NCBI GenBank assembly: GCA_000310025.1
Contig: FN649742.1
Location: forward strand, 1,158,922 to 1,181,962
Source of the DNA: Ectocarpus siliculosus
Taxonomy: Eukaryota > Sar > Phaeophyceae > Ectocarpales > Ectocarpaceae
Length of the DNA stretch: 23,041 bases
Direction of reading: 5' to 3'
The notes below the pieces were generated by a model that worked only from the letters and a program-made list of their open reading frames with translations, did not search any database and had not been told where the DNA came from. Each line of letters begins with the position of its first letter. Within the stretch, counting starts at the first letter, position 1. This document shows positions 4,328 through 22,972 of the stretch, piece by piece. Made by a program: the position numbers and the translations under genes.

Positions 4328-5880
4328 TGATGCACGCTACATTCCGGCAGAGCAGCAGTGTGAGCTTCAACCACCAAGTCGCTCACTTGAACAGAGTCAG
4401 TTGTCGAGGGAGAGGTATACTGCTATGTAGCTGCTGATATACAAGTCCATGAGAGCGGAATGTCCTAAGCACCCGCCCAACTCACCAGCTGCACCTCACT
4501 CCTCACAAACCAAACCACCATCCTTCACGGGCGATAAACACGAACTACACACATGTATCAGTCGTCGTGTGAGAACGGATGGCGACGATATGACCCCTTG
4601 CCGGTGTCGGTTCCTACCGAGTGAGCTCCTCTTACTCTACTCCTGTACTGGTGTGGGATGGCTACAGCAGCCTGAACAGAAGTCCTGCAGTTACTGCCGT
4701 TGTTGCGGGCCCCCAGGTTTGTTCTTGCCTGCCTATGGCGTAGCCTTGACTGTTGTCCTTCTCCCCGCCGCCAACGCCACCACCCAACCCTCCAAGCTTG
4801 CCCATCTTGACCGACCCCGCCGCGGTGCTCTCAGCATCATCGCCGGCATCGCTGCCCGTCCTGCTTCGCGTACCGACGCCTCGAAGGCTATGTTTCCAGC
4901 TGGATTTTCTGGAGAGCGACTGAGGGGAGTGCGGAGGCAAGTTCCTAGCTAGGACGGGAACGGGAGGCATCGTGACCAAGCGCAGCAGCGTGAAAGGCAC
5001 CCGTGCACAACGAATGCAGCCCACCAGGAGTACACAACCACACCACGGCGCACACTAACAGCAACGACGCCGTGGACACGGTGGTGCCATCGTGGTGCGC
5101 AGATTTCCTCCACGGGAGGTAGGGTTCTCAACGAAACAATGCGGCGTGTTTCCGTCTGCGGCTGCGGACTGGCGGCTGGCGGCTGCCTGCTGCCTGCTTC
5201 GCACACTTCAGCCTTTGCCTGAACCTTGTGTTTGCACACACACCTTCCTTCAAGGTGAGCCACTTGTCGTAGTCACCACTGCTCTGGCAGGCGGTAGAGC
5301 CATTACGCCGTATGGTTTGACTTCCTAGGCCGAGATCTTGAAGAGGGTGGTGCCAAAGAGCTGACCCGGCGTCCCTAGAGAGCGTCCTCGCTCCGCTGCG
5401 AAAGCAAGCGTCCATCAGCAACGCATGGTGTCGTTGATTGCGACGCAGTTGACACACTTGGCAGACGGTTGCCGGGTTGTCTTGTCGTGCTTTGACCTCT
5501 CTCCTGCGTGTTGCATAGCATTGTATCTGGCATGTGAAAGTTCTGCTGTGTATGGATCAGAGGGGGATGATGCTGCTGTCGGTCTGTCGGTGGCCACACG
5601 CAGAGCTCACCGCTGTTGCGTTCGACGGAAACCACGCCAGCGGGAGAGAACCGACCAATCTCGTCGAAATGAGACTGCATAGATCCAGTAGCTGTTGTCG
5701 ACCAGGGGTATCTGCAAGAGCGGAGCTTGCACTTCTGTTTCAAGCCTACGCCATCGTGTGTGGTTCGTGCACAGCAGTAATGTAGTACTGCACCCGTTAC
5801 GGGGGGGTGTTATCCTGTGTCATACACAGCGAAGCAACACCACCATCCCGATGGAACGAGCCACCTTGCCTTGCCGCGCA
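4328..5880. other. Intergenic region between divergent genes, no gene seen
   Basis: This is about 1.5 kb upstream of the minus-strand helical-protein gene and forms part of the 5' flank of RPS13. Short open frames occur on both strands. None has the sustained G/C third-position bias or paired splice sites seen in the real exons. A minus-strand Gly/Ser-rich stretch around 4750-4920 looks mildly coding, but I could not join it in phase to exon 4290-4327. Untranslated 5' exons or promoters of both genes probably lie here. No TATA element was identified with confidence. Confidence 0.4.
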
Positions 5881-5917
5881 CAGGGACCCACTCGGTCTAG
5901 GCTGAGTGGGTGCCCTG
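5881..5917. repeat. Imperfect inverted repeat (hairpin) upstream of RPS13
   Basis: The left arm CAGGGACCCACTC (5881-5893) is complementary to the right arm GAGTGGGTGCCCTG (5904-5917), with one bulged base. A 10-base loop, GGTCTAGGCT, separates them. The right arm ends 182 bases before the RPS13 start codon. It therefore lies in the promoter or 5' untranslated region. The role is unknown. Confidence 0.6.
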
Positions 5918-6099
5918 ATTAACCCCCCCTGAAGATGCCCCGTTTTTTTGTGTTGTTCGGCGTTGCTCGTGCTGCTCTTTTTTATGTCGTGTTCGCGAAC
6001 GGTCGGTGTTGTTGTGGACCAATCTGCTGGGTGTTTGCGCCATGCGTTTTTGCTGTGCTACCGCGGGGCAAACGACGAACTGCTACACGACCACTGTAG

Positions 6100-7769
6100 A
6101 TGGGGCGCATGCACAGCGGCGGGAAGGGTATCTCCAAGTCTTCTCTCCCCTACAAGAGGAGCCCGCCCTCGTGGCTCAAGATCTCCGCCCAGGAGGTCAC
6201 CGAGCACGTGTGCAAGCTGGCCAAGAAGGGTCTCACTCCTTCGCAGGTGAGGCGTGAAGCTGTACTGCGTGCATAAGGAAGAGACTCAGCGGCGGGGTAG
6301 TTTTTGTCGGAACACGAGCTGTAGTGCAGGGTTTGGGAAATATGTAATCGCCGACATATTACCTGTTCGAGACATGACCGCAGCAGATGAAGGGGATGTG
6401 TTGAAACTCTTTTTTTTTTTCACGTTTATTTTTTTCCGATAGTGGAGCGTACAACAATCATGGCAAATACACCAAGCCTGGTTGGAAGCAGAACGTGGCA
6501 CCGCATCGACGCCGTGCTTGTTGGTCGACAAACCCAACGTATACCATAGGGCAATTTTCCACGAAGTATTTGGCACAACAGTATTGAGCGGGAAGTAGTT
6601 CGACCCAAGCTCACATGGTTGGGTTGCCGCTCGCCCTGCAACATCTGCCTTCACCGTTGGCGAGGTAGACTTGTATGATCGTGTCCACACGAAAATTATG
6701 AGAGGCGCAATTTTCTTTTTTCTCTCGTCAGTCTGTCGTACCTAGTGATGGAAACTGACGCTGCGCAGCATTGTGTATTCTCACATTCCTCTTGCCTTGG
6801 ATGAAAGCTACTTTAACGTAGAGGTGCGAAGTACGTCATGACCTCAGGAGGGCATGTGGCGAGCCCTACACGCATCGTTTGGAACATAATTTCTCCAAGT
6901 TGACGGGTGATTTATGTCTTTCCCACCTCCCACCGAGGTGTCTGTTGTTTGTTTCTGTTTATACTGAACCTGGACTGGTGACATTCGCCTTCTGAACTCT
7001 ATTTTCCTTCCAGATCGGTGTGATCCTGCGTGACTCCAACGGTATCGCTCAGGTCCGCGCCATCACCGGCTCCAAGATCCTCCGCGTGCTCAAGGCCAAC
7101 GGTAAGCAAGAGGGCACCCACTCGAGTCGCAACACCTGCTTCTGGTCGAAAAATTGTGTTCACAGCCAGCAAGACTGTTTGTGGCGTGCAGACATGGCCT
7201 GATATAAATAGCACCATGTCAAAACCCTGGGGAAAACAGGCGCACATCCCCTGCATGCCCATCCACACGAGCGATTGTTTGGAGGATAACTTCGAACGCC
7301 ACGGTGGCCGCCCCGTCCATCCAATCCCTCTCCTATGTCGGGTATTTTTTTAGAAACAAGCAATGCCCCTTTTGAATGCCCCCCTCCCCCCCCCCTCGAT
7401 TGGGCATCGGTGATCGGTCCTGTGGGAACAGTGCTCTGTCCTCTCGAGGACGCGTGGTCAATGGTCTAGCCGCTAAGGCATGCAAAACATGAGAGTACGC
7501 CCACCCCCACCTAAACCAATTGTGTCCACTTTTGGTCGTCCTTGGCAGGCCTTGCCGCCGAGATCCCTGAGGACCTTTACATGCTCATCAAGAAGGCGGT
7601 GGCGGTGCGCAAGCACCTGGAGCGCAACCGCCGCGACAAGGACTCGAAGTTCCGCCTTATCCTCATCGAGTCTCGCATCCACCGCTTGGCTAGGTACTAC
7701 AGGACGAACCGCAAGCTGGCAGCCAACTGGAAGTACGAGTCCTCCAGCGCCAGCGCTCTGGTCGCCTAA
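6100..7769 (+). CDS. RPS13: 40S ribosomal protein S13 (uS15), three coding exons
   Basis: Exons 6100-6246, 7014-7101 and 7549-7769 join in phase to 151 residues plus TAA, the usual length of eukaryotic S13. The protein starts [20 protein letters not shown], with the conserved N-terminal extension of the eukaryotic protein. It continues through [18 protein letters not shown] and [20 protein letters not shown] to the strongly conserved [20 protein letters not shown] and [13 protein letters not shown], and ends [10 protein letters not shown] as in animals and plants. It belongs to the small ribosomal subunit, where uS15 binds the central domain of 18S rRNA near the bridge to the large subunit. 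Splice sites are canonical: CAG/GTGAGG to TTCCAG/ATC, and CG/GTAAGC to TTGGCAG/GC. Intron 1 is 767 bases and contains a T run near 6408-6420. Intron 2 is 447 bases with a C-rich stretch near 7380-7398. TGTAG directly precedes the ATG and could be an acceptor, so a 5'-UTR intron is possible. Confidence 0.98.
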
Positions 7770-9616: not shown

Positions 9617-10172
9617 GCTCCCATCAACTGTACCGCCGCTCCGTCCGCGAGTGCGTGTGTCCCGCCCGGCCGGCGCCGCGGGGAAATCATGATGGCTAGT
9701 GGTCCCCGCTCTCGCCGCCGATGCTGCTGCCGATGCTGCCGCTCCCGCCACGAGTGCCTGGGCACCGACCGTCTCCCCCGCCGCCGTCGCCGTCGCGGGG
9801 GCAACTCTGCTGCCGGTGGTCACCCCTCTCGCCGCCGAGATGCTACCGATGGTACCGCTCTAGCCGCGAGTGCCTGCACCCCGGCCGTCCCCCCCGCGGC
9901 GTCGCGGGGAAAACATGCCTGCCGATGGTCTCCGCTCTCGCCGCCGGTGCTGCTACCGTTGGTACCGCTCTAGCCGCGAGTGCCTGCACTCCGGCCGTCC
10001 CCCCGGCCAGCGTCGCGGGGAAAACATGCCTGCCGGTGGTCACTACTCTCGCCGGTGATGCTGCTACCGATGCTGCCGGTCCCTCCGCGAGTGCCTGCGC
10101 CCCCGCCGTCTCCCCCCCCGCTGCCGCGGGGCAAACTCTGCCACCGGGGGTCATCGCTCTCGCCCCCGGTGC
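9617..10172. repeat. G/C-rich tandem array of five units, about 108-116 bases each
   Basis: Successive units begin near 9617, 9725, 9841, 9951 and 10062, giving periods of about 108, 116, 110 and 111 bases. Shared landmarks are TGCTACCG or TGCTGCCG at the unit start, then CGCGAGTGCCTGCA, then GTCGCGGGGAAAACATGCCT, then GGTC..CTCTCGCC. The 9841 and 9951 units are nearly identical (GGTACCGCTCTAGCCGCGAG recurs at 9851 and 9961). The outer units are more diverged. A 111-base period equals 37 codons, so long Ala/Pro/Arg-rich open frames appear on both strands, but the 110- and 116-base units shift frame. I therefore call a minisatellite rather than a gene. Confidence 0.8.
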
Positions 10173-11802: not shown

Positions 11803-14800
11803 CTACGGCACTTGACTTGACTGGTGTTCAACTGAACCACCGGTGGCGTCAGAGGAGGCAATCCGCGTCAGAGGAGGCCATCGTGCTCTCTGTCCCCACG
11901 AGCTCTTCGTCTTGACTGTTCGCGGTGTCTCTAGCGTCCCCGCTGCTGCTGAAGGAGTTATTGACCTTCCTGGTGTTGTTGTAGATACAGCGTTCACTCG
12001 AGAATCAGAGTAATAGTTCTTTTCTGGAAGAACCTGGCTGCCTCTGTGTGCCCTCCACAACTCAGACGACCGGCGCGACAGGAAGCCGTTCTGGGGCATG
12101 GCCGAACTAGGATTGAGAAATGACAACGAAAGGCGGGCGACGTTGTTCGTGCTGGTGGTAGTGGTGGTGTAGCTGTCGCGCCTTGTTCGTTCAAAGGTGT
12201 TGCCGACACCACTCCTGCGGCGTTCTCCTTGGCAACCCCGAATGTCGCCATGCAGAAACAGCTGTCGTTCATGTTGGTGTCGTTTGTGACGTAAAATGAG
12301 CCACCGACCCGGACGAAAACAGAAGAGGTGGGGCAGGGACGAGAGGAAGAGAGGGGGGGGCGGGGGGGGGGGGGTAGTGTCAGGACCGTCAGGGGCATGA
12401 GGAGAAAGTACCATTGGAAAAGTGTTGTCGCCAGGTTGTGGTCAGCTATAACGACCACGCTTGAATCGCAATAGACGTACCATTTCGAGCATCAACCACC
12501 ATTTTATTGATCACTTCCGTTGCGGGTTTCATGAGCGGCATCATTTCTGGCCATCTCCTACACCAATCTGACGGGTGGGTGTTGTGTAGTAACCTTAGCC
12601 AAAACTGCAGGGCGGGGACAAGCAAGAAGAGCTCAGAAATGCCTGTGAATGGGAATAGCACGTGAGAAGTACAAGAAGCATCTTACTCTCCATACCCAAT
12701 CGGGAGTGTACGCTTCTAGGTGCTTCGACAAGTGACGCGAATCTCCTTGATCACATTGTCACAGGTTTGGTTGATTCAACGAAGAGACGAATAACATTAT
12801 ACCCGACAAAGAATATCGTTGTAAAACCAAATATCGTATTGATTTGCGACCTCCTCGTACAACATCCCTACGGCACGTGCCACCGAACGATCCATACAAA
12901 GCCTCGATTGACTTTAAAGGCACGCACCAAACTGTGCTTGCTTGTCTGCCACACATAGAGCGATTTGGGAGGGTCTGCACGGACAGATGCTCTTGGTTCG
13001 AACCTTTAAAGCCTTGGGTCCGAACACCGCAGATATGGTGAACACCGTCCCCCAGACAGCCGAGAAGCTCCGCATGCACGACCTCGCGACAGGGTTGTCG
13101 TTGACCAGAAGGTACATTACTACGTTCAACAGACCCAGCAGCGTGGTATTGTACACCGACACGCAGATCGATTGCGACTGTTTGTTGTTAGTTATTACCA
13201 GCGAGCCGGCGAATGCACAACAATCGTCAAGCGCAAGGAGTGCGTTCGTTTTGTAAGAGAGACAGAACGTTGCCCCCCCCCCCCGCGGTGTTGGGCGATG
13301 ACAACCGTGGTCAGCGTTGGTGGGCAAGACGTAAAACACCAGGGCAAGAAACAGGGAAGGAGGAGTGGGAGGTAGTTAGTTTTGAGGACGGCGTGCGCCC
13401 CGTTTAGCCTATTTGGGCGCACACGAATTCCACGAATCTTGCAATACCGTTTCAAACCGTGTCCGCATGATTTCTACTACTGTAGTTTGAGTCTCACACC
13501 AGTTGTCCAACCAGTCCTAATCCTGGTTTTAAGATAGTGTGGATGGAGAGATAACTCGACGTATGGGAATCGGGCAAACGGTGGGTTTGCGTGGGTGCTG
13601 CATGTATGTATACGGTCATTTGGGGGGTGACGGAAACACGCTACCGTAGTGTAGTCACACAAGAATATACAGGCTCGTTAGAAGGGACTACAAGACATCC
13701 ATCCCTCTCTTACTCTCCGACAGATGCTCTTGATCTCATGCCATTGATTGCTACTTCGGTGGGGCTTACTAAGCCTCTCGTCAGCGCGCGATGCGAACCC
13801 GACTCGCTAGGCTTTCTCAAGGCATTCAAGTTTTCTTTGATGCCACATGTTCACCCCAGACATTATTTTCTGTCTTTTTCTCCACACCATAGCAAGTCGT
13901 GGTAGACGGCGTGTAAGGTTGCCCACCAAAACTACTACAATACTGATGCGACACCGATGAGAGAATATGGTATATTGCTCTTCGCAGCACGCGAACCACT
14001 TTCTTTCATTCCCAAGCGAGTTACGACCAACCGACCAGCAGCCAGGCCCCGAGGTCCGATCTATATCAACCACGGCGACAGCAATCAACACAAAAAACGA
14101 TCAGCCAAATCATAGAAAGGCAAACCCGGCGAACCACATGAACAAGGCGTCGCGGTGGGTTCTTCTTTTGTTTATCGAATCCTCATGCTGTGCCGCACCT
14201 CGCCCACACCATCGGCGCAGTGCCAGGTTTTCGCAGCCATTACCACCCCGAAGAGGTTTAGCCCCCCCTTGTAGATCCACAAGATTGTGCCGAAATATGC
14301 CGCCCCGGGATCACAAACAGGTTTCTCCAACTCTGCAACGCCACGTATGTGCGGCAGAGGAGCGAGAAGAGAGACACATTAATGACTACTTTCCAAAACA
14401 AAAGCGAATGATAGACGAGCAATTCTTCATCTGGCAACGGAAGTGTGTACTGCCGCGTACGCATACAGTCAACTGGTCAAAGCTACAGTTCCAGTGCTGG
14501 GCGATCTACTCACAAGGTCGGGTGCTTCTCGTCTTTTAGGCCGACGGTGTCTATGTTCGCAATGACAGAAACTTCCTGTGGTGGTGTGATCCAACCGTGG
14601 TGATGTGATCCAAGGGGGTTACTGAAATTTACCTCTCCGCGGGTGCGGGCTACCAAAGTACGGGGGTGCCTCCGGCGGCACGTTGGGGGTTTAGGAACGG
14701 TGACAGCGAGCATCATATCAGATGATACTACTACTGCCCCCCCCCTTGTACCCTCTCACATTTAAGTTATGGTGAAGAGAGGGGAATCAAACCACTTGTC

Positions 14801-17800
14801 GTCACCGTTCAAACTGCCGATGAGGAAAGGGTGTTCTAATCGATAAGGCGCCGTTTACTGGTGTGTCTTCATTGCCGAATACGGAATACATAGTTCGTCA
14901 CCCCTCCCGCCACGAAAGAGGGCGGGATGTATCCGTTGTTATCCCCACACGCGACGGCGTACTCGCGGGACTAGCATGACATGGACTTTTCGCTGTTCCT
15001 CCAGGAAGATGTATACGGCGGAGAGAAGCTAGGGGGTGAAGTCCGACAACGGACACTACGGCAACTTGGCTGCCAAACCAGCGTAACCCGACAGAAGCAG
15101 ACGCCAGACACCACGGGCGGCGTACGGGCGGCGACGTCCCGCTCGCGCACACCACGAAGACCACCGGCAAGATGTGGCCTCTGCAAGAACCGAGACTCTC
15201 GGCATATCAGAGCGGCTACAAGTATAACTGCGTGTGTTGTGTAGAGCGGGTGGTCGTACCTGCATAGCCCTGTGTAAAGTGAACCATGCACGCTCGCGGG
15301 CCGTCCAGGATCAGCCATAGCGTCAGAAACATGACATCGACAGCCACAAGTCTCAGCACCCATACCACCAGGTTCCTACGGGACGAATATCACGATGCAA
15401 CGCATGATATGGGATACGTTGGTGGGCGTGTGATAGGAAACCAACGGACGCGCGGCTGCCGAAAGGACCTGGTGGCTACTCTCGCAGTGTGGACTTGCTG
15501 GTTGTCGAGATGTGTTGGGCGCACGTATTTACTTGAACTTGTTTTTTGCAAGGTATTCCACGAACTACTTCGTTGCTCACGTGCAGCGATCAGCGAAAGC
15601 CGCGAAAGACGTAAGGCAGCCTCGATCGGATTACAACATACAGTAGACAATATCAAACTACCGGTGTCGACGATCGTGCGGGAAACGAGAGGCCATGTAC
15701 AGTAGTGTCTCCACCCCGCAACGTGGGTCGACATATGATGAAGACGCGAACTTCCTGGAGAAAAACGATGAAGTACGCCTCTTCACGTAGGTTTTGTGGT
15801 GTGGTAGAAATAAAGCGGATGATGTAAAAACGTCTTTCAACAGATCTTAATTGACGAGAGGATGGCCAGCATGACAGTCTTGACAGACTGAGGGACTCGG
15901 AACGTCGTGAGAAAGTCAAGGCTACTGGGTTGCCAAAGCGTTCGCTTCCCCCGAGAGAGGGTGGAATGTGCGGTAAGCTGTGGCTTGTTTACCCCATGGC
16001 GCCCGGTATTCCGAATGTATCTCCAGCCTTGTCTCCATTGTTGGAGACCACGTCATAATCATGGAGACTATACGTCTACTCGTGACCAAGTCTATTTCTG
16101 ACGGGTCGATGTAATGTAATGGGGTCTTATGTCTGGTACCTGTCAGATATAGACATGCGGGCCAGCGTCTCGTTGTTGAAGAGCCGATGGACTCGGTACG
16201 TCTTCATGTACAGGCAGCTGGTGGTATTGTTGTAGAATAGACGAGTGAGCACACACGCACGCAAGCAGGCAGACGACCAGACAGACAAATCGATAGACAT
16301 AAACGGCATGGGGGGTAAAGGGGGGGGGCAAGATCTGTCAACGAGGACGCAATCATATCAAGTCTCAACTCACGTCGACATCAGGCCATGAAACAGTGTT
16401 TCCCCGGGTAGAGATGAAAAGAGCACTATGATAAAATCAACATACGTGGCGTACTGCACGGGCACCATCCATTGGAACCGCACGAAGAGACGTACAGAAG
16501 GAACACCTGGTGTTACGTGCCTCGGCACAACTAGATACGCTTCGATTGGACAGATAGACCAGCATACAACAGCCAGTGGGCTTATCCTACCGGTGGAGGG
16601 GATTAATGCCCCCCCCCGCCAGGCCAGCACGAGCTACTTCTCGTCCCCCTGCCCCCCAACTTTACAGAGGGATCGCACCTGCTGGCAAATGTTAAGGCCG
16701 TGTGGAGCACGCAAGGCCGCAAGCGGCAGACGAGAGTTGAGGGTTCTCCCAGGTAAAGCGGCGCGGTGAGGTTGAGAGCGATACACCCCAGCAGGAACAG
16801 TTGGCATACGAACGGCTGCCCCATTTTCACCACCGATGTCTGGGGCCGATGATACGCAAAAGAAACCATGTATAAAGACGAAAATGAGAGAGTGTTCGGA
16901 CGTAGCAAGAGTGATTGAAGCGCGGATAGAGCGTTCCAGATTACAGGTTTCAACACCGCACGGAATTTTCCTCACACAGCAACGCATCCACTCGTACTTG
17001 GTGGACTTGTTCCGGCATCCTCGGTTGAAATCGCATGGGCAAAGTGTTACTCATTTGGTCCGTCAACGCCCGTCTGCTCCTTTGCCTTGGTTGAGACGAG
17101 CGCGTTGTTTGGTTTTTACTCCATGCCTCGCGTACCTCTCGATGCTTCATTATCCACACGAGGAAGAAAATGGCGTATATCGCTCCGAAGGCCGAAAACC
17201 CCATCATGGTACGCCCTAAGGAAGTCCTCGTGGGGATGAAGCCTGCAGTGGATCAGCACACATGGCGGGGGCAACAGCAATGAGGGTGTACTGCAGGACA
17301 CAGCTAGCTATCACTACTTACTCCCCCAATGTCCTCGTTGAAGAGACAACTAGATGTGTCAATCGTACCTCCCAGGGGGGCACGACAAGTCCGCAGAATT
17401 CACCCCTGAAGACACACATGTCCTACCACCGATCGGAGGTATCCAACCTACGAGCTCAATTCTGAGAGTATTTAAGGTTGCCCAAATTAATTTTTCAGCA
17501 AGAAGCCATTCGCCACACACCTTGAGAAGAAATCGTCGATGAAAAAAGTGATCACGAAACAAAGAAAAGCAGCATGGGTTGCGCTTCGCCTCCTTTGTGC
17601 ATTGTCCTGAAGCAAAACCCGTTTAACGGCAAGCTCACTCACCGCAAGAAACCCTGGCATCAATTGGCAAAGCCAGGCCTCCCTCACAGGTGATCCCATC
17701 CTTCCACTCGTGCACGACCGTACGGTGTAGATTTGTTGTGCACTCGCCCACGTCGATTTCGAGGGACTCGATCACGCATTGGTCAGTCGCAAGGATGTAT

Positions 17801-20800
17801 ACCTTGCCAAGGACGAATACGGTGTCCACATGTAGAGGGACGGGGGGCAATCGGACATATTCACTTGGACAACCGTACCAGCATGCATTCATACTGTGTA
17901 ATTCCAAATCAGGACGTGGCATTTACCTCGTGGAGCTTGAAGCTACATGTAGCTCGAGATACCGTTGTCCTATGATGGTCCAACATACCCGTACAATACC
18001 ATGCACTACCGTGCAACAATATTCGAACTCTTCCACACGTCGACCCAAGAGATGCAGCTGCTGCAAGTCACCTCAAAGTCTTCCTTGCATCCCATGATCA
18101 CGGCGTCTTTCATCCTTGTCGTCCACTTAGCCCGCTATCACCACCCCCGGCAAACTTCGCACCTCAAACGGACTCCCGGGAATGTTGAGTTTGTCCCTCT
18201 GGACGAAAAATAACGTCGTCTCTGACTCATTATGAGTGCTCAGCTCCACCACGTAAGAACCGTTCCCGACGTCGCTGACCCGCTCCGGAATCTGCTGAGA
18301 TGAAGTGCTCATCCAGGCCTGGAAGGCGTCGTCTCCGTACCCAAACGTGATGTCGTTGCTGTAGAAATCTCGGCATGAGAAAGACACGTTCGCCGAGGAA
18401 TGTTGCACCATCGAGGTAGGCGGCTTCGAAGAAACTGTTCACAAGGGAGAACAGGTATGCGTAGGGGAGGTCGTACCGTGTATGTATGCGTGTGTGTCCG
18501 GGCTGCAGTTTGTAGTAGGTCAATCTTCAGCTAGTCAACAAGACGTTTTCGTGCTAGATTGCTCGAAGCAGCGGAATTTGCTTCGTCTCCATATCATGTC
18601 CTGCACACAATACATTGTACGGAGACAAAAGAGCAACAAGTACAAGCAGGTGCTTACCGACGGAGTTGGGTGCGTAGGGTTCCCCTGGAATGGATACAAT
18701 GTCCAAAGTCCCCAGGGTTCCACCCGATTCTAGCAACACCTTCAGCGCGCGGCAGTATTAGCAATAGACGAAACAGTAGCAGTAGCAGGTGAAGCAGCAG
18801 TGAAGACTAGACTGGAAACAAATTTTCCACAGTGGTGCACACAGGAATAACATCTGGTGCTTGACGGGGTTCCGCAACTTGTGCCTTCAACACCATTGCT
18901 TGGAGGCAGTTGGCGTCACTTGGGAGCTTATTGTCCCCTTTGTGGAAGTTTTGCGAGTGCGCAATGTTCGAGGTTATCCGTGTTCAAGACGATCGGTGAT
19001 CTCATGAAGCAATAACGCCTCCACGCATGGAGACGCTTCGTACTACGTGTTGGACACTCACCACGACTAAGTGTGCCCCGGTGACCGGCAAGTTTATCGA
19101 AAGGGACGTGTACTTGTTGGTAACATTCTTCATGGACCCCTGAAAGAAAATTGACGCTGGGATATTGACATAGGAAGTCGTCACAGGCATAGAGGAAATC
19201 CTGGGCACCGGCGAACCACAGAAGGGGTAGGGAAGGACGTGGGGGAGTCAGAGAATTCGCATTTTGTCGCACGCTTTGGTAAATGCTGCTCTGAGTGCGA
19301 CTTCTCCTGAACTAGCGATAATGGCAATGCATAACTTGCATTGGAGGCAGCTCCTACGGCCGACCCCATCTCCGACAATCCACGTGTTCCGAATTGAAGC
19401 TAATCTTGAAAATAATCTCACGCCGACGACGTATGGTAATGTCCGGATCATGATTGAACTTTATGAGGTGATGTACAACGAAAGGCACAAGAACTCAACG
19501 TTCCAAACAAATGGGAAATCTGCACGGTGTGTCTCAAGAGGTTGCGTGTACGAAATTCGCTCACTCCAGAGGGATGCCATCCCCGACATCACAGTCTTCT
19601 CCCTGCTCCGGCTCCGCCACCACGATCAAGTCAGATGTGGCATTGACCTGTCACGGCAGCATCGAACCAACAGATTCATATGGTGCCAAAAACGTGACGA
19701 ATCTCTCTTTTAGGGTTGACAACAACTCGACTCCAGACTCCGACATTACAGCGTTTCGACTTATTATTAGTTTTCCCGAGTGCCACAATTTCTGCGTGCA
19801 TGCAACCGTCCGTACTCGAACAAGAATATTGACCATTCGGGTGGCTAAAAGGCGCTCACGTAGCAGCGTAGCAGTGACATTCAAATGTCGCGTAGGGTTA
19901 GATTGCACGGGAACAAACCGTACGCCAAGTTTACCACGACAAAGGCCTCACCACGAACGACTCGGGCGGAAGTATCTCAATGCCGCAGGTGTGGTAGTGG
20001 TGCACCATGACGAAGTCATAGTCCTCGTCGACAGCATACCAGATCGACAAGTTTCCGCTGGCAACGCTGTAGAACTCGATCGATCCGTACTGGTACTCCC
20101 GGTTCAACGTGGAAGCTTGGAGCGCTGCTAATTCCGTGTCCGGATCCCGCGAACATAGAAAAGGACGGTCAAGAACCGCCGCCGCCCCGAGGTAGAACCA
20201 GCACCCTTCTGAGAACCGGGCGTACACTTCACTCGAACCGAATTCTTGGATCAAGTCGTGGGCGTCCTGTACCGTGAAGGTTGGGTCGGTACCGCCGAGA
20301 ACCCAGCCCCAGTCGCCCGAGTTTGCGTTGGACGAGGCCATATTGAAGTGAATCGTGACGATGGCTCCAATGTTTGTGCTTGAAACCTGGTCGGTAGGAG
20401 CAACAACGTTGGCAGGTTGTCAAACACGCCCATATTCCTCTCTGTAGCACTGCGGTTGTGGTACACCATACCATGTATACATGCACACCACACAAGGGTG
20501 CCGATTTACCGTCATCCATGAGAGAGTGTGTCAGCTCCACCGAGTAGTGTGTACTCTACCACGGCAGATAGGGTTCTGACAGCCTTGATGATTGGATTCC
20601 AAAGACACACCTGGAAGAAGTCGTAGTTCGGCTGGTATACTACAAACTCAACGCAGTCAGCGGCGATGCATCTGTCCTCGTCCGAGACCAAGCAGGCAAA
20701 ATAAACACCAGGGTCTCCCAGCAGCACCGACGCGTTCCCCGAGTCCGACGCCGACCTGTTGGAGGCTTCATTGGGGTCCTGCCCGAGAGTCGACGTATAC

Positions 20801-22972
20801 CACCAAGTACTGAAATTTTGAAGTCTCACAGTCGCCCCTTTGAACACCTCCTCATTGTCGAAAGGATCCACAGGATCAATGGCGTACGCGGTGAGGTTGC
20901 AGATGTCAGAGCCTGCGCCTAGATCATCCGGCAAAACTGGATACGTTTGGTCGCCTCCTTGACTCGATGATGACGAACTTGTCGAGGAACTGCAACAGAA
21001 CGAAGCGCCGCACGCATACATGCGTCGTTCGCAACACAGCGTGCCAAAAAGGGTGGTGAACACTTGTTTGCTGTGATATAATGTAGACTACTGCTTGCTG
21101 TAGTCTAGGCACTGAGGATGACAAACGGGCCTTGCTACGTGGAATCACTGGAAGCCAAGAACCCGAGCTATGCTACAAAAAAATACAGGAGACACTGCAC
21201 AGAGACGGGGTGTTTCGAAACTGCGTTAAATGCTCTTCTCGCGATTTCCGGCATGGATGGGTGTTCCGACAGCGATTTCCGGGCAAGACAGCGCTGATCA
21301 CAGGGATGACAACCCTGAGGGGACGTGTTCGTGGCTGCAAAGCCAGACCGGACACGGGCATTTAACTTTTGTTGAGAAGCACGATGACCACTAGACCACC
21401 AGTCAGCTCTTGATCTGACTGGTGGTCTAGTGGTCATCGTGCTTCTCAACAACAGACTTAGCTCACATAAAGATTTTTTGTACACGGGAGATTCGAAGCT
21501 GTTGAGCATTTTGTCCTTTGGGGATTTTATTTGCGCCCGATATACATACATAGACTATGGGAACAAAACGTCTATGAGACCTCGCAAAATATGCCGATGA
21601 ACCTCTTGTGTACCTTGGGTCAAGACAGCGGATTATAATCAATCACAGGTAGGTAGGGAGGCAACCCTAGGGGAACGCGTTCGTGGCTCGAAAGAAAGCT
21701 TGACGGACTCGGGCATTAGCACGATGACCACTATACATAGACCAGTCAGCGCTGACTAGTGGTCTATGTTGTGGTCATTGTTGAGAAGCACGATGGCCAC
21801 TAGACCACCAGTCAGCTGACTGGTGGTCTAGTGGTCATCGTTCTTCTCAACAAAAAAAGCGAGAATTCAGATGGATCCTACCAAAGGGGGGAGGAGTCTG
21901 AAATGGGATTTTATTGGAGTTGAGTAAAGAAGTGGGCATTTATGTTATATGGCGAAGAGGATGTCCACGTGCTTGTAGGAGAGGAGGCCTGCGTGCTGAG
22001 ATAAGACAGCTGCTCGCAGGACATTCCTATTGCGCCCGATCACGTTGAAGCATCAGCAGTGCTAGGAGGAGCACAGGGATTGCTAGACGTACGAGTGGAC
22101 AACACGGCCAGCTGCTACCTGTTAGGACATTCTGTTTCCGGCAGCTAGTGTTGTCGTCTTTCCCACCCACGCCACCCTCGAATTTTTTCCGAAAGAGGGA
22201 GGGGGGGGAGGGCGATAACCGGGGGGTACGAGTACCTGGAGGGTATTTGTGGAACTTGTCGATTTATGATCGTTCTTATTCCACGAAGAACTGTGAGGGT
22301 CTGACTAGTGGATGTCGATGGTAGAGTACCATTGAGGGTCTCGGTTACTGAGACGGCATTTTGTTAGGCCCGGCCAGTTGACATGGAAGGGAATCTTGGG
22401 TGCTGGATGAGAGAGGGAGGCGATCGGTGTCGCCCCCTCGTTATTTGCCAGTGAGTTACCTTCCAGACTTCGTGTAAAATGATAATAAAAATGACACTTC
22501 GGAAAAATACAATAAACTAATGTCCGGTGTTCGCATCTTCTTTGTTTGTCGAGAAGCACGATGACCACTAGACCACCAGTCAGCGCTGGCTAGTGGTGTA
22601 GTCTAGTGGTCATCGTGCTTCTCAACAGTCATCATGCAACAACAACAACAACAACAACAACATACTACCCTTGACGTGATGTCCACATGACCAGTATACT
22701 ACTGCTGTAAGTTGTATACCACTCGAGAGCAATCAACACCACCTGAGGGATTCGTTCCCATCCCCGAATCGTAGCACGTCCGTAGCAATCCCATCGAAGA
22801 ACACAAAGACGCGACCCTGGAGGGTCCAGGATATGACGGTCAGCGTCACCGCGTCCCATGCGTCTACGGAGATATACGTGCTGTTGCTCCGCTGCGCGTT
22901 CTCTATCGAGAACGGTATCCCGTCCGTATATCCAACCAACACGACGAACAGGGCCAACACAGCGACGAGCAT
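11803..22972 (-). CDS. Class C (GABA-B-like) seven-transmembrane receptor with filamin-type Ig repeats in the ectodomain
   Basis: Exons by hand (minus): 22743-22972, 20611-20989, 19952-20386, 19565-19647, 19062-19200, 18658-18739, 18163-18434, 18010-18083, 17643-17893, 17136-17215, 16679-16839, 16140-16217, 15260-15375, about 15060-15180, 14633-14669, 13004-13177, 12481-12604, and a tail ending near 11803. Phase agrees at nearly every junction; exceptions are listed as findings. The start is ATG 22970-22972 with signal peptide MLVAVLALFVVLVGYTDG. The ectodomain (to about residue 645) ends its repeats in filamin style (LDIVSIPGEPYAPNSVV, VGNGSYVVEL, IPGSPFEV). A Cys-containing stalk (TCEGGLALP) precedes TM1, AFGAIYAIFFLVWIMKHRE. 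TM2-TM3 carries FLLGCIALNLTAPLYLG and LHTALTFASSCLYMKTYRVH. TM4 is VAVDVMFLTLWLILDGPRAC. TM6-TM7 carries SVYNTTLLGLLNVVMYLLVN and ends VFGPKALK. These match the class C core. No Venus-flytrap domain was seen. The expected product is about 1,050-1,100 residues in the plasma membrane, presumably G-protein coupled; its ligand is unknown. Confidence 0.85.
12353..12374. repeat. Poly-G tract
   Basis: Eight G, one C and thirteen G in succession. On the minus strand this is a C run inside the pyrimidine tract of the predicted last receptor intron, just upstream of the acceptor ACGACAG. It is prone to slippage and sequencing error. Confidence 0.85.
18163..18739 (-). other. Best-defined filamin-type repeat in the receptor ectodomain (exons 18658-18739 and 18163-18434)
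   Basis: The two exons join at a strong donor (CG/GTAAGC at 18657) and a pyrimidine-rich acceptor (GAACAG/TTTC at 18435). The repeat before ends LDIVSIPGEPYAPNSVV. The new one then follows the order expected for filamin/ABP280 repeats: ANVSFSCRDFYSN, GDDAFQAWM, DVGNGSYVVELST and NIPGSPFEVRSLPG. These repeats form Ig-like beta sandwiches. In cytoplasmic filamins they bind actin-associated and membrane partners. Here the signal peptide upstream and the TM helices downstream place them outside the cell. Confidence 0.8.
21282..21450. mobile_element. Fold-back repeat element, copy 1 (intron 1 of the receptor gene)
   Basis: A body of about 85 bases contains AAGACAGCG, CAACCCTGAGGGGAC, GTTCGTGGCT and a C-GGGCATT box. 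It is followed by a perfect 36-base inverted repeat: left arm 21371-21406, loop CTCTTGAT, right arm 21415-21450. The body recurs in the same order in copy 2, and the hairpin recurs twice more. This suggests a small non-autonomous transposon (MITE or SINE-like). No transposase is encoded nearby, and I did not identify target-site duplications. Confidence 0.6.
21618..21851. mobile_element. Fold-back repeat element, copy 2, with two hairpins
   Basis: The body (21618-21719) matches copy 1 at AAGACAGCG, CAACCCTAGGGGAAC, GTTCGTGGCT and ACTCGGGCATT. Two inverted repeats follow. An imperfect one lies at 21718-21780. A nearly perfect, loopless one has arms 21780-21815 and 21816-21851, with two mismatches. 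The second has the same arm sequence as the copy 1 hairpin, so the element looks duplicated or nested. Confidence 0.6.
22548..22626. mobile_element. Fold-back repeat element, copy 3, hairpin only
   Basis: The left arm from 22548 (GAGAAGCACGATGACCACTA and onward) and the right arm ending at 22626 form the same hairpin as copies 1 and 2. The right arm carries an internal duplication (TAGTGGTGTAGTCTAGTGG). No conserved body precedes it. It lies within intron 1 of the receptor gene, about 120 bases downstream of exon 1 in the direction of transcription. Confidence 0.6.
22637..22662. repeat. (CAA)n microsatellite
   Basis: There are 26 bases of uninterrupted CAA repeat immediately after hairpin copy 3, in intron 1 of the receptor gene. 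On the transcribed strand it reads (TTG)n. Confidence 0.9.

Follow-up and report, generated by a model that had tools for sequence, protein, structure and literature searches.

The receptor described here comes from Ectocarpus siliculosus, a brown alga and thus a stramenopile, and its seven-transmembrane (7TM) domain is similar to that of GABA-B receptor subunit 2, the coupling subunit, which does not bind GABA. A Venus flytrap is common to most, though not all, class C receptors and present in each GABA-B subunit; none was found in the algal receptor. Animal adhesion GPCRs, in which a large adhesive ectodomain sits on a 7TM domain of another class, resemble it in idea only, and a GAIN or GPS domain was not among the two Pfam matches of the whole 857-residue algal protein. 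To our knowledge, neither GEX2 of flowering plants nor FUS1 of Chlamydomonas contains a class C 7TM domain. Both carry a filamin-like domain on the gamete surface and act in gamete adhesion (PMC9187738, in the parts available), making them exceptions to the statement, part of an earlier reading of this DNA from its sequence alone (the sequence-only reading), that filamin repeats are normally cytoplasmic.

Varied ectodomains on non-animal class C receptors are already known, as are diatom receptors of this class without a binding domain. Like the algal receptor, glutamate-family receptors of choanoflagellates and their relatives join a class C 7TM domain to non-animal ectodomains (5_nucleotid_C, Ephrin_rec-like; PMC12716839, in part). 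The diatom class C GPCRs, which also belong to stramenopiles, are closest to GABA-B, and some of them likewise lack the PBP1 ligand domain (PMC3727952, in part). The word "filamin" is absent from the main text of both papers (according to word searches), and the accessible passages of PMC3727952 describe no comparable ectodomain. No class C or other 7TM receptor with a filamin ectodomain was found among the papers listed by literature searches, which covered titles and abstract openings, with subscription papers largely uncovered. A filamin-type repeat at the ectodomain position of a class C receptor, which did not appear in these searches, is therefore apparently new.

Gene structure

The window, meaning the whole stretch of DNA analysed, comprises 23,041 nucleotides (contig FN649742.1, positions 1,158,922 to 1,181,962), and coordinates without a contig name refer to it. 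On its minus strand, 15 exons within 22972-13004 join into one in-phase open frame of 857 residues without a stop. In the corrected model, all 14 introns of the receptor gene have GT-AG ends and the phases are continuous. The predicted protein begins with a signal peptide, which is followed by an ectodomain of about 580 residues and a complete class C seven-helix domain. The features are as follows, with the evidence in brackets.

22743..22972, minus strand: E1, start codon and signal peptide (MLVAVLALFVVLVGYTDG), then the first strands of the ectodomain (splice phases, hydropathy)
21366..22634, no strand: foldback-repeat copies, part of intron 1, not protein-coding (genome-wide core search)
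20611..20989, minus strand: E2, ectodomain, four cysteines (phases; paralogue, E=7e-16 and 4e-19)
19952..20386, minus strand: E3, ectodomain (phases; local alignments with the paralogue, 57% in 49 aa and 40% in 88 aa)
19565..19647, minus strand: E3b, ectodomain exon of 83 nt, VNATSDLIVVAEPEQGEDCDVGDGIPL (located via the paralogue, 62% over 29 aa)
19062..19200, minus strand: E4, ectodomain, 139 nt (phases; paralogue exon of 139 nt)
18658..18739, minus strand: E5, ectodomain, IPGEPYAPNSV, 82 nt (phases; paralogue exon of 82 nt)
18163..18434, minus strand: E6, probable filamin-type repeat, RDFYSN ... DVGNGSYVV ... NIPGSPFE (sub-threshold Pfam Filamin match, motif, paralogue)
17643..17802, minus strand: E7, putative final filamin strand (VYILATDQC), followed by the juxtamembrane region rich in cysteine (acceptor set by the paralogue)
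17369..17405, minus strand: E8, 37 nt, VNSADLSCPPG, closing the cysteine-rich linker (entered in phase 1, left in phase 2)
17136..17226, minus strand: E9, TM1 (phases, 7tm_3 profile)
16679..16839, minus strand: E10, TM2 and start of TM3 with the conserved Cys (genome-wide 7tm_3 match, 4.7e-6)
16140..16217, minus strand: E11, end of TM3 and KTYRVHRLF (7tm_3, E=0.0031 for the frame alone)
15260..15375, minus strand: E12, TM4 (phases, 7tm_3 profile)
14199..14332, minus strand: E13, Cys of the second extracellular loop and TM5 (phases, 7tm_3, GABA-B2 alignment)
13004..13177, minus strand: E14, TM6 and TM7, FGPKALK, donor uncertain (7tm_3, E=1.1e-4 for the frame alone)
11861..12329, minus strand: candidate cytoplasmic tail, coding-like at 12329-12177 and 11986-11861 (codon scoring only)

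The pieces named in the sequence-only reading were all recovered in the right order on the minus strand, namely the signal-peptide exon, IPGEPYAPNSV (E5), IPGSPFE (E6), TM1, TM2-3, KTYRVHRLF, VAVDVMFLTLW and VYNTTLLGLLNVV, and the phases it had called compatible do join the exons into an open frame. Its exon list was real as far as it went but omitted the TM5 exon and the ectodomain exon E3b. Regarding the extent of the gene, 22972-13004 could be modelled, whereas the proposed 3' end at 11803 was not established, the only signals there being the coding-like stretches listed above as a candidate tail. The ATG at 22972 is preceded by an in-frame stop codon four codons upstream. Further exons 5' of E1 could lie in the N that adjoins the end of the window, but the stop just before the ATG counts against them.

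In the chosen frame, codon use gave a positive score for 15 of 15 exons, and the two remaining frames scored lower each time. This support is not independent, because the scoring was trained partly on these same exons. The weakest exon of the model is E8, which is only 37 nt long and placed by its phases; here, one alternative frame scored positive as well. A first hand model, built from splice sites and phases, had E4 starting at 19139 and E7 at 17893. Comparison with the paralogue moved both acceptors, revealed exon E3b (19647-19565) and made a speculative exon of the first model at 18060-17927 unnecessary.

Intron 1 contains several copies of a palindromic foldback repeat with the core GAGAAGCACGATGACCACTAGACCACCAGTC and its complement, and this core has 87 + 98 copies in the genome (up to 3 mismatches; 0 for the reversed control). 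The repeat looks like a MITE-type foldback element.

The class C seven-transmembrane domain

The class C identity of the 7TM domain is far beyond chance. The translated gene model as a whole matched Pfam 7tm_3, one of the two families expected by the sequence-only reading, at E=1.5e-43 (149.8 bits, cut-off 33.5) over profile positions 6-251 of 251, and the joined 7TM part alone covered the same positions at E=2e-44. Two unjoined single-exon frames in the window reached E=0.0031 and 1.1e-4; the frame with TM1 gave 0.14. In a 7tm_3 search of the entire genome (189 Mb), positions 16684-16881 gave the better of two matches (4.7e-6).

When solved structures were searched with the 7TM part, 81 distinct sequences were obtained to E=1, and the best 60 of these were listed. 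GABA-B2 came first with E=1.7e-17 over the whole bundle; the list also includes mGlu2 (1.9e-12), mGlu3 (9.1e-9), mGlu8 (1.8e-8), GABA-B1 (1.6e-7), GPR156 (3e-6) and CaSR (7.3e-4). In bit scores, GABA-B2 reached 66.9, mGlu2 50.3 and GABA-B1 34.0, the last being below mGlu3 and mGlu8. The profile match and the nearest solved structure fit the earlier description of the domain as GABA-B-like.

Activation of class C receptors uses the cysteine pair of TM3 and extracellular loop 2 (ECL2), an ionic lock that pairs an acidic residue ahead of TM6 with the lysine ending TM3, and the PK ending TM7. In the alignment with GABA-B2, the TM3 and ECL2 cysteines are kept, KTYRVH stands against KTWRVH and FGPK against FVPK, and the acidic residue before TM6 is also retained (GVGESQ vs ALNDSK). 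A crude hydropathy scan (19-residue windows >1.5) flagged four of the seven helices (TM1, TM2, TM4 and TM6) together with two weak stretches in the ectodomain. The helix count of seven is therefore taken from the profile and the GABA-B2 alignment, not from hydropathy.

A second class C-like 7TM gene was noticed at C27:2818202-2818941 on the minus strand (L007 about 5202-5941), a locus that also matched 7tm_3 in the genome search, with frames that resemble TM1 and TM2-3 by eye. A different cysteine-containing sequence lies nearby, and assembly N adjoins on one side. In the 10 kb examined at this locus, 4935 bases of them N, nothing convincingly resembled the ectodomain (best E=7.5 in one search, no match to E=1 in another).

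An ectodomain paralogue and the continuity of the gene

A genome search with the ectodomain of the first model returned C17:2545733-2551709 at E=7.6e-19, 2.3e-17, 5.9e-16 and 6.3e-13. This ectodomain paralogue, at C17:2545619-2552591, shares its contig with the window at a distance of 1.4 Mb, and its reading frame contains no stops. From E3b to E7, its exons measure 83, 139, 82, 281 and 151 nt vs 83, 139, 82, 272 and 160 nt in the window, and the phases are identical in both loci at E2/E3, E3b/E4, E4/E5, E5/E6, E6/E7 and the E7 donor. The E3/E3b junction of the paralogue was read by eye, including the E3 donor, which the script placed three bases downstream without a change of phase. Because its splice sites were picked with knowledge of those in the window, the exon match is support and not an independent prediction. 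Paralogue exons E1 and E2 are fused into one, with a similar N-terminus, and E3 has one additional intron. The intron after the fused exon is seemingly GC-AG, with a GAG/GCAAGT donor (L005 3291-3296).

The two ectodomains share 38% amino-acid identity, E3 reaching 34% in the global alignment and thus less than the local values given above. Over 553 aligned codons, they differ at 275 first, 213 second and 372 third positions, an excess at third positions as would be expected of a constrained coding region. A run of N (2552635-2568515; L005 9635 to L011 5515) starts 43 bases after the paralogue's E7. Because this run occupies the place of any 7TM domain that the paralogue may have, we infer the fusion of ectodomain and 7TM domain from the sequence of one gene. 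The 4.5 kb behind the run contained no 7TM match and one ectodomain match at chance level (E=0.64).

Alternatively, two neighbouring genes could be present, one for a secreted or otherwise anchored ectodomain (E1-E6 or E1-E7) and a separate one for a class C 7TM protein starting at E7 or later. Such an arrangement would fit an ATG that lies just past a possible acceptor at 17893, in a frame opening into E7, as well as a paralogue that shows an ectodomain without a readable 7TM domain. However, both loci carry the E6 and E7 donors at the same places and in the same phases, so that neither exon is likely to be a last one, and splicing E6 to E7 re-creates the filamin ending at each locus (NIPGSPFE/VYILATDQC and VPGSPFE/VYVFGPANC). 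Moreover, within introns of 237 nt (E7-E8) and 142 nt (E8-E9) one gene could hardly end and another begin, and a protein from the alternative 7TM start would, by eye, lack a hydrophobic N-terminus. We consider two genes improbable. The in-phase joins, together with a paralogue whose phases agree as far as the juxtamembrane exon, argue for one gene, as previously proposed.

The ectodomain

The N-terminus of the protein is a hydrophobic stretch of signal-peptide type, and residues 19-602 hold 12 N-glycosylation sequons vs 5.1 expected after shuffling (p=0.0015). Both observations point to an extracellular ectodomain, in line with the sequence-only reading. The 7TM part has 3 sequons vs 1.1 expected (p=0.08), and there are 14 cysteines in the ectodomain. 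A Venus flytrap, reported earlier as not visible, was not detected in the Pfam scan of the whole protein either, which gave no ANF_receptor or periplasmic-binding match to E=10 within the limits of the HMMER filters. A genome-wide ANF_receptor search, which can miss exons, yielded a single match from two candidates scored (C3:3813519-3813689, minus strand, 30.3 bits).

Up to about residue 345, Pfam and PDB searches gave no convincing match. The Pfam scan was without a match for the E2 frame and returned InhA-like_MAM only at chance level for the E3 frame (E=0.15); for the E4 frame, there was a weak EVC2_like match under the cut-off (E=0.016). Searching PDB with the ectodomain of the first gene model, before its correction, resulted in seven rows to E=5, with a flavohemoprotein as the best (0.019), followed by antibody chains; the 7TM part is identical in both models. 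The single-sequence structure model of E3 was poor (pLDDT 41). On viral contigs, no pattern match was obtained for the 7TM domain, and E3 gave four pattern matches with 0 relatives by tblastn, a comparison that covers close relatives only.

Filamin repeats show the motifs RDxYxN, DxGNGSYxV and [IV]PGSPFEV in this order, and E6 together with the start of E7 contains RDFYSN, DVGNGSYVV and NIPGSPFEV in the same order. The ending motif was found at E5, E6 and the paralogue's E6 when all frames of the window and 12 loci (one of which, L001, is the window again) were scanned, and 0 times in 300 shuffles of the window, with a pattern that was composed after the motifs had been seen. The E6 repeat aligned by hhalign with a filamin repeat encoded elsewhere in this genome at P=8.9e-4 (probability 23%), the single control exon, E2, giving P=0.012. 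Between window and paralogue, the repeat is about 49-50% identical. A profile of these two sequences had BtuB first against PDB at 0.047, and filamins made up 8 of the 18 rows (E 0.17-0.93).

The match to Filamin, the second family expected from the sequence-only reading, stayed below the Pfam cut-off of 26.9, with 17.6 bits (E=0.0071) for the E6 repeat alone and 13.4 bits (E=0.14) within the whole protein. The paralogue's E6 repeat had no match in the Pfam scan, and the receptor gene was not among the four matches of a genome-wide Filamin search (on C9, C2, C25 and C12). Judged by eye from their translations, those at C9:2293543 and C2:2094491 read like kelch/IPT/filamin dynein heavy chains, and the one on C25 reads like a large adhesin. 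A single-sequence structure model of the E6 frame, which extends beyond the E6 donor by roughly a dozen residues, reached a pLDDT of 54, and 0 of 647 entries of the fold search had E<=0.001. These scores, the missing matches and the uninformative model would all suit a different Ig-like or beta-sandwich domain with a few filamin-like motifs, a reading compatible with the receptor proposed below. We regard it as possible but doubtful, given that the three motifs stand in filamin order and that the shuffles and the hhalign comparison speak against it.

A second candidate repeat (E3b-E5, IPGEPYAP) failed, with no Pfam match, no filamin among three PDB rows and hhalign values of P=0.16 against the filamin repeat and 0.12 against the first repeat. 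The ectodomain, described by the sequence-only reading as built from filamin repeats, thus probably holds one filamin-type repeat with the hallmarks of this family, but is not shown to be built of such repeats.

Genome context

The EsV-1-7 cysteine motif has at least 150 matches in the genome (all scored ones; 880 candidates) and 0 in 14 control genomes. Its expansion presumably marks brown algae, and the many motifs fit the brown-algal origin that had been suggested. Elsewhere in the window, positions 7515-7769 on the plus strand contain an exon of the ribosomal S15 family (Ribosomal_S15, E=2.3e-14, Pfam), RPS13 by reading. Positions 9659-10172 consist of 4.6 copies of a 111-nt tandem unit (37 codons) with long open frames on both strands, and two minus-strand frames of this array were without a Pfam match to E=0.01.

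Possible function

Judging from its predicted architecture, the gene fairly probably encodes a class C receptor that couples to G proteins and uses an Ig/filamin-like ectodomain for recognition. Standing in for the Venus flytrap, the ectodomain would bind a surface-bound or secreted partner such as matrix, wall or a second cell (a gamete, for instance). By way of the filamin repeat and the cysteine-rich linker, this binding, or a force, would reach the 7TM bundle, and the activated bundle would switch on one of the alga's G-alpha proteins. The genome contains 22 G-alpha matches, located on C1, C3, C7, C19 and C479 (over the cut-off), with single weak ones on C2 and C11; a G-protein partner is therefore likely to be present. 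According to the accessible parts of PMC3879662, Ectocarpus has six G-alpha genes and three male-gamete-specific putative GPCRs, three partial GPCRs are upregulated in females, and a GPCR-like gene, Esi0104_0023, is included in the RT-PCR validation table. A sex-chromosome paper mentions a putative transmembrane receptor, and the words "filamin" and "GPCR" are absent from its text as far as available (PMC12592211). The cysteine-rich juxtamembrane stretch sets the algal receptor apart from GABA-B receptors, which are without the cysteine-rich NCD3G domain (PMC12716839, in part).

Since a filamin-like module was found and no Venus flytrap, surfaces or partner cells may be sensed rather than a small molecule. 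The filamin-like domains of GEX2 and FUS1 act extracellularly, according to the same parts of PMC9187738, and for this reason we favour, with modest confidence, an adhesion or recognition receptor over a small-molecule receptor. By analogy, adhesion or gamete recognition is a plausible role, and the wall or matrix sensing suggested by the sequence-only reading is possible as one among several roles.

It is also conceivable, though in our view unlikely, that a small soluble ligand is sensed in the 7TM bundle or the cysteine-rich linker, or that the protein is an orphan or constitutive partner subunit, the ectodomain being a spacer or a dimerisation part. The coupling subunit GABA-B2 is the closest among the solved structures listed, and GPR156, which has no Venus flytrap, is among them too; both would fit such a function. 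However, an ectodomain that is long, rich in sequons and open in a diverged paralogue goes beyond the needs of a spacer.

Complex multicellularity arose separately in brown algae. Tentatively, we propose that a small family of contact-reading class C receptors that signal through G proteins may have arisen there too, without common descent with the adhesion GPCRs of animals, the contact being with wall, matrix or gamete via the Ig/filamin-like ectodomain. For the sensing of matrix, neighbours and gametes in brown algae, a GABA-B-type 7TM domain joined to an adhesion-like ectodomain is a concrete and testable candidate. The receptor would add brown algae to the lineages that use the class C 7TM domain as an interchangeable signalling module.
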